This document shows, piece after piece, positions 2,202 to 5,501 of a stretch of DNA of 6,254 bases. The stretch spans positions 1-6,254 of the forward strand of contig RFHZ01000613.1 in the NCBI GenBank assembly GCA_003696125.1. Reading direction: 5' to 3'. This DNA is from Nitrospinota bacterium. Lineage in GTDB: Bacteria > Tectomicrobia > Entotheonellia > J063. A program made the position numbers and the translations under genes. Every line of letters starts with the position of its first letter. The stretch's first letter is position 1. Under the pieces are notes generated by a model. That model had not been told where the DNA came from. It saw nothing but the letters and a program-made list of their open reading frames with translations, and searched no databases.

Positions 2202-2594
2202 ATGATGAGGGTACTCTTCCCAGGTGTTGCGTGGTGCCTCATAATCACGATGTGTCTCGTGGGCCTGATACCCAGGGTGGAAGCAGGGTTTGTCCCTTCC
2301 CAGATCCTCCCCTCCCCTCCTGTCGATCGCCTGCAGGACCTGGAGACGATTCGGCAGGTGCTGGAGATGAAGATGGTGCGAGAACGCCTGAAGCAACTCG
2401 GTTTTACTCCAGAAGAGATCCAGGCACGTCTTCAGCAGCTAAACGATCAACAGCTTCATCAGCTCGCCCGTCATCTGGACGAATTGAAGGTGGGAGGGGG
2501 AGGACTGGAAGTCGCCATCCTGATCCTGCTCATCGTCACCCTGGTCCTCCTCATCCTGCTTTTGACCGGTCGTCGGGTCATCGTGACCAAATGA
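2202..2594 (+). CDS. PA2779-family small envelope protein
   Basis: A 130-aa protein resembling the uncharacterised Pseudomonas PA2779 family (DUF6627 in Pfam, from memory). A signal peptide spans about residues 1-28 (hydrophobic core 8-23, likely cleavage after V-E-A). It is followed by a charged helical region at 43-96 with L-G-F-T-P-E-E-I-Q-A-R-L, where P-E-E-I-Q-A-R-L is the part most like the family. Then come four consecutive glycines (98-101), a membrane helix at about 103-122 and a short basic tail with R-R. The expected topology is periplasmic with a C-terminal anchor. Start: AGGAG at 2191-2195 precedes ATG-ATG at 2202/2205 by 6 or 9 nt, so either ATG could be used. It lies 41 bp after the permease gene and overlaps the peptidase gene by 4 bp (ATGA). 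The function is unknown. Confidence 0.82.
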   Translation: MMRVLFPGVAWCLIITMCLVGLIPRVEAGFVPSQILPSPPVDRLQDLETIRQVLEMKMVRERLKQLGFTPEEIQARLQQLNDQQLHQLARHLDELKVGGGGLEVAILILLIVTLVLLILLLTGRRVIVTK

Positions 2595-3157
2595 AGGGGC
2601 TGGCTGTAGAGATGAGCTATCGGGTGTCAGGCGGACTTCTCTTCCTGTTCTTGCTGGCTGCATGCGCCTCTCCCCGGGTGGAAATGGTGCCGTACCCCGC
2701 AGCCCACCTGATCCGGGATGTTCCCTTCTTCCCCCAAGAGACGGATCAGTGTGGTCCGGCAGCCCTGGCCGGGGTTCTCCAATACTGGGGCCTTCAGATC
2801 TCCCCGCAGGAGATCGCCTCAGCCATCTACAGTCCCTCTGCCCGGGGAACCCTGACCCTCGACATGGCCCTCTATGCCCGGCGGCAAGGACTCCAGGTGC
2901 GCCAATACCAGGGGAGTCTCTCTGACCTGACCCGCCGTATCGACCAGGGATACCCGCTGATCGTCCTGGTCGATAACGGCTTCTGGCTCTATCCCCGCTA
3001 TCACTTCCTGGTCGTGGTCGGGTACACAAAAGACGGGTTCATTGTCAACTCGGGCCAGGAGCGGTTACGGTGGCTCTCCCGGGAGCGTTTCTACCGGTCG
3101 TGGAAGAGAGCGGATCTCTGGACCCTGCTCATTACACCGAAGCAAAATGATGTCTAG
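2591..3157 (+). CDS. C39-like cysteine peptidase lipoprotein (PA2778 type)
   Basis: A 188-aa predicted lipoprotein with a papain-like C39 peptidase domain. The signal sequence ends in the lipobox L-A-A-C with lipidated Cys25. Ala-Ser follows, so there is no inner-membrane retention Asp. The peptidase domain runs from about 41 to 182. It has an N-terminal Gln49 (probable oxyanion-hole residue), nucleophile Cys54 in D-Q-C-G-P-A-A, general base His138 in R-Y-H-F-L-V-V-V-G-Y, and Asn153 as a possible third residue. Known C39 domains cleave after double glycine, usually as part of exporters, but this one has no ABC exporter part and should face the periplasm. The start at 2591 overlaps the previous stop as ATGA. 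ATG at 2612 is an alternative and gives a more compact 18-residue lipoprotein signal. PA2778 relatives, as I recall, carry C-terminal TPRs in the same chain; here they are in the next gene. Confidence 0.85.
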   Translation: MKGLAVEMSYRVSGGLLFLFLLAACASPRVEMVPYPAAHLIRDVPFFPQETDQCGPAALAGVLQYWGLQISPQEIASAIYSPSARGTLTLDMALYARRQGLQVRQYQGSLSDLTRRIDQGYPLIVLVDNGFWLYPRYHFLVVVGYTKDGFIVNSGQERLRWLSRERFYRSWKRADLWTLLITPKQNDV

Positions 3158-3632
3158 GTATCGTCGCTACCTGTATCTCGGTCTCCTCTGTCTTTTGGGA
3201 GGATGTACATTGCCTCGCCTCGTTGTGTTGCAGGATACCCTGACCCCAGAAGAGCATCTGAACCTGGGGGTTGCTTACGAGGAGCAGGGGGAGTTTGCCG
3301 CAGCGATACAGGAATACAAGCTGGCGGCCAAGGAGCTTCCCCGGGCCTATCTCTACCTGGGCAATGTCGCCTTCCGGCAGCAGGAGTGGAGTCAGGCCGA
3401 ACGCTATTACCAAAAGGCGATCGACCAGGACCCAGACCTGGCCGAGGCGTACAACAATCTCGCCTGGCTCTACTATACCCGGGGAGAGAAGCTGGAGGAG
3501 GCCGAACACCTGGCCCGCAAAGCCCTGCTCCTCGACCCGGGGAAGGCGGAGATCTATACCGATACGCTGGAGAAGATCCAGGCCCTCTCTTCGGCTGGGG
3601 AGAAAAGGAGAAGGGGGATGGGTACACGTTGA
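3147..3632 (+). CDS. TPR lipoprotein, partner of the C39-like peptidase
   Basis: A 161-aa protein with a basic N-region, a hydrophobic core and the lipobox L-G-G-C (Cys20), followed by Thr-Leu, so it is a predicted outer-membrane lipoprotein. About three tetratricopeptide repeats follow. The first is at 33-65 (L-N-L-G-V-A-Y...F-A-A-A-I-x-E-Y), the second at 66-97 (A-Y-L-Y-L-G-N-V-A...A-I-D-Q-D-P), and the third at 98-131 (A-Y-N-N-L-A-W-L-Y-Y...A-L-L-L-D-P). TPRs act as protein-binding scaffolds. The C-terminal tail is short and basic (K-R-R-R). The ATG at 3147 overlaps the peptidase gene by 11 bp; ATG at 3150 is equally possible. The tight overlap and the PA2778 precedent of peptidase plus TPR in one chain suggest the two proteins work together. 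The stop codon is overlapped by the -35 element of the next promoter. Confidence 0.85.
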   Translation: MMSRYRRYLYLGLLCLLGGCTLPRLVVLQDTLTPEEHLNLGVAYEEQGEFAAAIQEYKLAAKELPRAYLYLGNVAFRQQEWSQAERYYQKAIDQDPDLAEAYNNLAWLYYTRGEKLEEAEHLARKALLLDPGKAEIYTDTLEKIQALSSAGEKRRRGMGTR

Positions 3633-3685: not shown

Positions 3686-3699
3686 ACCAGACGTCTGGT
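3686..3699. repeat. Perfect 14-bp palindrome ACCAGACGTCTGGT
   Basis: Two exact 7-bp arms with no spacer, in the predicted hflX leader. Its last three bases (GGT, 3697-3699) are also the first three of the next, longer palindrome, so the two hairpins could not both form fully. It could be an operator for a dimeric protein or the edge of a repeat unit. Confidence 0.7.
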
Positions 3700-3726
3700 A
3701 GGGGTGCAGCGCGCTGCGCCCCTACC
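3697..3726. repeat. 30-bp near-perfect palindrome, REP-like intergenic repeat
   Basis: The outer arms are GGTAGGGG and CCCCTACC, around a core GCAGCG/CGCTGC centred between 3711 and 3712. The only mismatch is T3705 opposite G3718, which would be a G-U wobble in RNA. The GTAGGGG...CCCCTAC form resembles dispersed palindromic repeats seen between genes in several bacterial groups. No run of T follows, so it does not look like an intrinsic terminator, although it would fold strongly in the hflX leader. Confidence 0.75.
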
Positions 3727-3756: not shown

Positions 3757-3763
3757 AGGAGGG
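3757..3763 (+). promoter_or_regulatory. Strong Shine-Dalgarno for the non-canonical hflX start
   Basis: AGGAGGG, close to a full match to the anti-Shine-Dalgarno. From AGGAGG there are 8 nt to the ATT at 3771, an ideal distance. An in-frame TAG at 3765-3767 shuts off any earlier start. No ATG exists between 3633 and 3770. This site decides the start of hflX. Confidence 0.75.
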
Positions 3764-3770
3764 ATAGGTT

Positions 3771-5501
3771 ATTAAAAAAGTTCACGGCAACATCTCCGGT
3801 TTAAAAGCCAGTCAACTGAAGAGTCTTGAACGTATTTATCGCCGCAAGATTCCTCCTACCCAGGTTATTACCGCAGAGCTTGCCCGTTATCTTACCACCC
3901 TTTCTGCTGAATTAAAGAAACAGATCGGCATCCTGGTCGATAGAAAAGGGAACATCGATTACGTCCTGCTGGGGGATGCCAAGGGGATCTTCATCCCGGA
4001 ACTCGAGCGCTTCCGGGTGGGACAGAGCCGGCTGCGTGGGCTTCGTTGTGTCCACACTCATCTGCGCCATGAAGCGCTCACGCGAGATGATCTGGTCGAT
4101 CTGGCCCTCCTCCGCCTGGATCTAATGGTTGCCCTGGAAGTCGAGGAGAACGGGCTTCCTGGGCTTGTGCATGCCGCCCATCTCCTGCCAGACAATGCTG
4201 AGGGGAAAAACTGGGAACTCCTTCCTCCGGTGCATCTGAGTCAATGGCACCTCGATTTCCATCACCTGATCCAGTCGCTGGAAGAAGAATTTGCCCGGGT
4301 GCAGGGGGCACGGACGGTTGGTGACCGGCGTGATCGCGCCATCCTGGTCAGTGTAACGACCGGAGGGAAGTTCCTCGCCGAGGATTCCATGGCCGAGCTC
4401 CGCGAACTGGCGGTCGGAAACGGGGTGCTGGTGCTGGATACGATCATCCAGCGGCGTCCCTCCATCGATCCCCGCTTTGTCCTCGGTCGAGGGAAACTGA
4501 GTGAGATCGTGATTCGCAGCCTGCAGCTCGGTGCCGACATGCTCATCTTCGATCAGGAACTCACCCCGGCCCAGGTCCGCTCCATTTCCAACGTGACCGA
4601 GTTGAAGATCATCGATCGCACCCAGCTCATCCTGGATATCTTTGCCCAGCGTGCCCATAGCCGGGAAGGAAAGCTCCAGGTCGAACTGGCCCAGCTCAAA
4701 TACCTGCTGCCCCGCCTGGTCAAACAAGACAAGGCCATGTCGCGTCTCGCCGGAGGGATCGGTGGGCGCGGACCGGGAGAGACCAAGCTGGAGATCGATC
4801 GACGACGCGTCCGTGACCGCATCCACCAGCTTGAAAGAGCGATCAAAGATATCAGCCGGGCCCGGCAGCAGCGTCGAGCCAGGCGCCTGCGCAAAGGGAT
4901 GCCCATCATCTCCATCATCGGGTACACCAATGCCGGGAAATCGACTCTTCTCAATACCCTGACCCACAGTCAGGTGCTGGCCGAAGACCGGCCCTTTGCC
5001 ACCCTGGATCCGACCAGCCGGCGCTTGCGCTTCCCGCAGGACAGAGAGGTCATTATCACCGATACGGTCGGATTTATCCGCGACCTGCCGCGCGACCTGA
5101 TCGCCGCCTTCCGGGCGACCCTGGAAGAGCTCCAGTACGCCGATCTCCTGCTCCAGGTGGTGGATATCAGCAGCCCGTACTATGAAGAGCACATCCTGAG
5201 TGTGGAGAAGATCTTACAGGAGTTGCATCTGGAACAGACCCCTCGCCTCCTCGTTTTCAACAAGATAGACAAGGTAGATCCGGGTACAGTGGAAAACCTC
5301 TGCCGCCTCTATGGGGCGATCGCCATCTCGGCGGTAGATGCCAGCACGCTCCCTCCCCTGGTGAAGAGAATAGAGCAGCTCCTGTGGGAGCGCTTCCCGG
5401 CGGGGCCTTCGGATGGGCAACAAAGACCGGAGAACTCAGTCTGTACCCCGGGTCACAAAAGGCCGGTAGCCTTCGCGAGCGAGGCGATCACTGATCTCTA
5501 G
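3771..5501 (+). CDS. hflX: Ribosome-associated GTPase HflX, probable AUU start
   Basis: HflX binds the 50S subunit and splits or rescues stalled 70S ribosomes; it acts in the cytosol. From ATT at 3771 the protein is 576 aa, longer than the roughly 430 aa of E. coli HflX because of an extension of about 185 residues (conserved-looking [19 protein letters not shown]). The core starts near 188. The middle-domain signature [12 protein letters not shown] is at 328-339, followed by a coiled coil. The GTPase motifs are G1 G-Y-T-N-A-G-K-S-T (384-392), G2 around A-T-L-D-P-T (410-415), G3 D-T-V-G-F (431-435), G4 N-K-I-D (497-500) and G5 S-A-V-D (520-523). All are intact. The first ATG/GTG/TTG in frame is GTG at 4017, codon 83, which would cut through the extension and lacks a good ribosome site. 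The last 21 codons overlap convergent rlpA. Confidence 0.92.

Follow-up and report, generated by a model that had tools for sequence, protein, structure and literature searches.

Non-canonical start codons and the hflX gene

Genes shown by experiment to start at AUU, AUC or AUA (here AUH; ATG, GTG and TTG are called canonical) are very few, and the standard example of one used for regulation is infC, the gene for initiation factor IF3. On non-canonical starts IF3 makes 30S complexes unstable, which infC exploits for autoregulation (PMC5472188). Weak initiation codon-anticodon pairs, AUU/CAU among them, yield little product in vitro and respond to IF3, EF-G and RRF (PMC10158994). The GTPase HflX separates 70S ribosomes into subunits; by crosslinking, its position on the 30S subunit is close to the IF3 site (PMC4770234).

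The DNA analysed here, called the window, is the whole 6,254-nucleotide contig RFHZ01000613.1 of a Nitrospinota bacterium, whose assembly is fragmented (4.18 Mb, 990 contigs). An earlier note had proposed that its hflX gene starts at AUU, a codon described there as known mainly from infC and pcnB. For experimentally shown cases that description agrees with PMC1780047; the list is extended by Streptomyces sigR, whose GTC start is repressed by IF3 (PMC5472188).

The hflX start resembles that of infC in placing AUU, AUC or AUA behind a strong Shine-Dalgarno (SD) sequence over many phyla, as infC does in E. coli and others. IF3 and HflX both act on the balance of 70S ribosomes and subunits, and both AUH genes occur in the same genomes; whereas IF3 represses its own gene, control of hflX would be cross-regulation. 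With pcnB, the E. coli poly(A) polymerase gene, it shares an AUU start on a gene other than infC, but in E. coli pcnB is described as limiting the dose of its product, and the AUH of hflX spans many phyla. Like hflX, sigR is a non-infC gene with a strong SD and a non-canonical start kept among relatives while the exact codon varies (GTC/GTT in sigR); unlike hflX, which is known from sequence comparison, it is confined to one genus, uses another codon (GTC) and was shown by experiment. The literature searched, with most subscription journals and preprints outside it, contained no earlier report of an AUU, AUC or AUA start for hflX. An IF3-discriminated non-canonical start is a known kind of element, of which hflX is a new and widely conserved case.

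The hflX start region

The features of the locus, all on the + strand, are as follows.

3757..3762, +, Shine-Dalgarno AGGAGG, read directly; 8 nt gap to ATT, position conserved across AUH relatives
3765..3767, +, in-frame stop TAG closing the hflX frame upstream, read directly
3771..3773, +, predicted AUU start codon of hflX; the aligned column is AUU, AUC or AUA in most relatives
3771..5501, +, hflX, long form, 576 aa, N-terminal extension and HflX GTPase; TIGR03156 457 bits, Pfam GTP-bdg_N, GTP-bdg_M and MMR_HSR1
3771..4334, +, N-terminal extension, about residues 1-188, predicted JAB/MPN-like fold with conserved H95-T-H97 and D107; from a model, structure matches and conservation
4017..4019, +, GTG, codon 83, first in-frame canonical start-like codon; inside a conserved domain and not a likely start

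The codons of the frame run TAG (3765-3767), GTT (3768-3770), ATT (3771-3773), and from ATT the frame stays open for 576 codons to the stop at 5499-5501. On re-reading, ATT indeed lies 8 nt past AGGAGG, and between TAG and GTG 4017 (codon 83) the frame contains no canonical start, as the earlier note had stated. The window gene therefore shows both marks of a non-canonical start: the absence of a canonical codon from the upstream stop to conserved protein, and an AUH codon with an SD. Read-in from upstream is ruled out by the TAG two codons before ATT.

The product scores 457.4 bits against TIGR03156 (curated cut-off 216.75) over residues 189-537 (E 2.7e-137), covering model positions 1-350 of 351. 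It shares the GTP-bdg_N, GTP-bdg_M and G domains with E. coli HflX, a protein of the same family that has 426 aa and lacks the extension of about 188 residues. Since the HflX core begins only near residue 189, a start at GTG 4017 would cut the conserved extension. RNA structure at the start did not exceed that of shuffled sequences (z -0.35), and no Rfam family matched anywhere in the window.

Upstream of hflX, positions 2202-3632 hold three consecutive frames, possibly one operon, for a DUF6627 protein and for two proteins that resemble lipoproteins, a C39-like peptidase and a TPR protein. Between the TPR gene and hflX stands a near-perfect GC-rich palindrome (3697-3725, gtaggggtgcagcgcgctgcgcccctac) followed by a near-repeat (catcactcattactcgttactcatc); the palindrome looks like a REP-type element within the hflX leader, and a terminator scan at 3697-3725 found no terminator.

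Conservation of the start codon among relatives

Relatives were collected with two queries, the full protein and a profile of 22 rows made from the first 200 residues. The profile search found the long HflX N-terminus in 79 of 386 genomes sampled across Bacteria, and on this distribution of sequences the extension is ancient. At the aligned start column the other four genomes of the window's phylum have ATT or ATC, as do therefore all five. The same column holds ATC in genome G035, ATT in G052 and ATA in G028; among named records, one from Nitrospinota and one from an uncultured proteobacterium have ATC there, and one from Syntrophus has ATA. Plasmid records gave distant Fusobacterium matches only, with an ATG start in the one read.

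Once duplicates had been removed, 73 distinct non-cyanobacterial loci were scored from the upstream stop to the conserved GN motif. AUH without any canonical codon in this interval was found in 39, and AUH with a canonical codon more than 3 codons further upstream in 11; the two kinds of codon lay close together in 4 loci, a canonical codon alone stood near the start in 18, and one locus had distant canonical codons alone. AUH is thus kept at the homologous codon in 50 of the 73 (the 39 and the 11), as ATC in 21, ATA in 16 and ATT in 13. These 50 loci span at least 34 genome families, counted from family codes, and three named records; they cover at least six phyla that are distinct by non-overlapping phylum lists, besides the named Nitrospinota, Thermodesulfobacteriota and proteobacterial records.

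Of 78 distinct loci, 42 have ATH in the start column, more than chance would give, and 1-8 have it in the columns directly upstream. The start column is marked as a protein start because distant relatives place ATG (Nostoc L039, L083, L086, L093, L095) or TTG (L013, L018, L038) there. The alignment of long HflX homologues that the earlier note had called for accordingly places the first residue at ATT, with AUH conserved at that column. ATG there, which the note had proposed would point to a local mutation or sequencing error, is limited to the more distant relatives just named, so that there is no sign of a local error at the window's ATT. The AUU start is strongly supported well past this genome, by ATT or ATC throughout the phylum and by AUH in 34 families.

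The Ile codon is sometimes retained behind an ATG one or two codons upstream (L007, L036, L040 and the cyanobacterial L232 and L239), so amino-acid conservation can account for part of the AUH signal. The presence of ATG, GTG or TTG near the start in 18 of the 73 loci shows that AUH is not essential to the family. Two loci without AUH at the start have CTA (L071, AAGGAG..TAAGCC CTA AGT) or ACG (L078, GGAGG CACTC ACG) behind an SD, and these may be further weak starts. In a tree of 77 N-termini built with the start columns left out, at least 11 changes between AUH and canonical codons and at least 36 changes of the exact codon were counted, rough figures given the tree's many weak branches. The comparison of these counts indicates exchange of the third base between U, C and A within a class that itself tends to persist, a pattern in the sequences that fits selection for a weak start.

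Ordinary and AUH genes were separated by the same scoring. In the GTPase control der, from the same genomes, all 18 scored loci had a canonical codon, and in 16 it lay no more than 10 codons from the conserved P-loop strand; 9 of the 27 der loci, in which the regular-expression anchor had no match, were left uncounted. Of the 42 infC loci scored in genomes with long hflX, 26 had AUH without any canonical codon (16 of 58 were left uncounted for the same reason), and in several of the remaining infC loci the best SD likewise points at an AUH codon. By this test, and as far as sequence can tell, the hflX start behaves like the infC start. In the fragmented assembly to which the window belongs, infC was not found, so the pairing of the two genes is seen in other genomes only.

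Long-form hflX occurs in 90 of 244 cyanobacterial genomes, and a canonical start is missing from most of the loci read. Two codons before the Ile codon there is often an ACG or, in some loci, an ATG or GTG, with Ile kept behind; the frame of Nostocales-like loci reads TAA-ACG-CCT-ATA. ATG or GTG stands at the ACG column in L232, L239 and L251, and canonical and non-canonical starts thus interchange at one column. From these alignments the start appears non-canonical in most cyanobacterial hflX genes and is ambiguous between ACG and AUH. An in-frame ATG is present in infC of the three cyanobacteria checked; as cyanobacterial hflX mostly lacks one, AUH in the two genes is not always coupled. A CCAG-N4-CTGG palindrome or small hairpin with a varying loop lies about a dozen nucleotides upstream of the start in L193, L195, L196, L198, L202, L237 and L243, where it occupies the place of the SD.

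Probable use of the AUH codon as a start

An SD, taken as a match of at least 5 nt to TAAGGAGGTGA at legal spacing, was found at the AUH codon in 34 of the 50 AUH loci and in 0-3 of 50 when the test position was shifted by at least 3 codons; the signal is partly common to the codons adjoining AUH, which the range of permitted spacings would lead one to expect. Between loci L008 and L009, codons 2-60 differ by 21 synonymous and 0 nonsynonymous substitutions, and the bias recurs in other pairs. By this measure the region before codon 83 evolves as protein under purifying selection, which bears out the earlier reading of the 82 codons before GTG 4017 as protein. In AUH-only loci the first downstream canonical codon comes at a median of 40 codons and as late as 119. 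Internal canonical codons with an SD (19 of 52) are not commoner than in a shifted frame (20 and 7), and a search of the hflX relatives for an internal start combining SD and canonical codon found none conserved in position. Start position, AUH identity, conservation and SD are well supported by this comparison across relatives, and we infer initiation with fMet at AUU 3771.

The N-terminal extension

Alignment rows show the extension to be conserved from residue 6 onward. Residues 1-188 of the window HflX had no match in Pfam, and no relative turned up among solved structures when these were searched with a sequence profile of the extension. A structural model built from the window sequence and seven named relatives has a mean pLDDT of 84.6, and its top structural matches are nearly all JAB/MPN proteins (JAMM1, AMSH, Rpn11, RadC). 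The best VIA match is P. furiosus JAMM1 (Z 7.6, 106 residues, 3.3 A), a Z that may reflect a common arrangement; Foldseek against JAB/MPN proteins gave an E of 7.5e-4 at best. Most of 75 rows carry H95-x-H97-x(6)-[ST]104-x(2)-D107 (H in 62, H in 63, S/T in 60, D in 69), one residue short of the spacing that is standard for JAMM metal sites (HxHx(7)Sx(2)D with an additional Glu); no Glu was assigned in the extension. The His pair is absent from the cyanobacterial and Nostoc rows of the 22-row N-terminal alignment. The model offers a lead that the extension is a JAB/MPN (JAMM-like) fold; if so, translation from GTG 4017 would delete part of the domain.

Alternative explanations

We consider it probable that hflX starts at AUU 3771-3773 through its strong SD and fMet-tRNA, and that AUH is kept because initiation there is poor and sensitive to IF3. 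A real AUH start might instead do no more than hold HflX at a low and constant dose, the role proposed for pcnB, with no response to IF3 or subunit levels. The pcnB precedent, in which AUU limits translation (as cited in PMC1780047), speaks for such an arrangement; the anatomy of the start would be identical, and loss to ATG, GTG or TTG in several lineages suggests that exact regulation is dispensable. A weak SD would serve a low dose equally well, yet the AUH of hflX goes together with retained strong SDs, as it does in infC, and sensitivity to IF3 is a general property of non-canonical starts (PMC5472188). We regard a constant low dose as unlikely, though it deserves serious consideration.

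The explanations that move or remove the AUU start have far less in their favour. Initiation at another non-canonical codon nearby, either GTT 3768 in the window or, in cyanobacteria, ACG or another NNG two codons upstream, has precedents in the GTT/GTC starts of sigR (PMC5472188), the Nostocales-like frame and the ATG or GTG at its ACG column; outside cyanobacteria the codon before AUH varies (GTT, ACC, GCA, CCG, AAA) while AUH and its SD spacing are conserved, making this very improbable. That a canonical codon downstream is the true start, or yields a second, short isoform, seems scarcely credible: a GTG does exist at codon 83 of the window, but the extension before it is conserved and under purifying selection, and internal SDs with canonical codons are neither enriched nor fixed in position. 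Most improbable is a local mutation, sequencing error or decaying gene. The metagenome-assembled source, in 990 contigs, would allow for one, but the frame is intact and the same codon class recurs in independent genomes of 34 families, the single-contig G001 and G002 included; an error at ATT itself is contradicted by AUH in the relatives.

Proposed regulation

Under the preferred reading, an AUU start sensitive to IF3, the SD would position the ribosome at AUU 3771-3773, where initiator fMet-tRNA would read the codon, and AUH would have been retained over much of the bacterial tree since initiation there is poor and IF3-sensitive, as in infC. With IF3 discriminating against this start, HflX would be kept at low levels and would probably respond to the supply of IF3. 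Abundant IF3, measured against 30S subunits, would restrain HflX synthesis; a shortage of IF3 would let initiation at AUU pass, and HflX would rise, as would IF3 through its own AUH start, and HflX, by splitting 70S ribosomes during the shortage, would restore free subunits. IF3 discrimination at hflX in this organism, and its regulatory benefit, are reasoned by analogy with infC; such tuning, raised already in the earlier note, fits the repeated retention of AUH, the AUH infC in the same genomes and the ribosome-splitting role of HflX. The recurrence of AUH at aligned hflX starts in many phyla suggests that cells deliberately keep the gene under initiation-factor control.

More tentatively, and with somewhat less than even expectation, hflX and infC may form a conserved IF3-sensed pair that controls subunit balance at the level of translation over many phyla. 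A shortage of IF3 relative to 30S would then raise both a subunit-separating factor and a 70S-splitting GTPase, an arrangement that would have stayed hidden because gene finders accept ATG, GTG and TTG alone. Such programs are expected to truncate or wrongly extend HflX, with the conserved domain partly or wholly lost. A second ribosome-cycle gene keeping AUH over many phyla would make IF3 regulate more than itself, and the AUH start of hflX would tie initiation fidelity to ribosome splitting in a way open to direct test.
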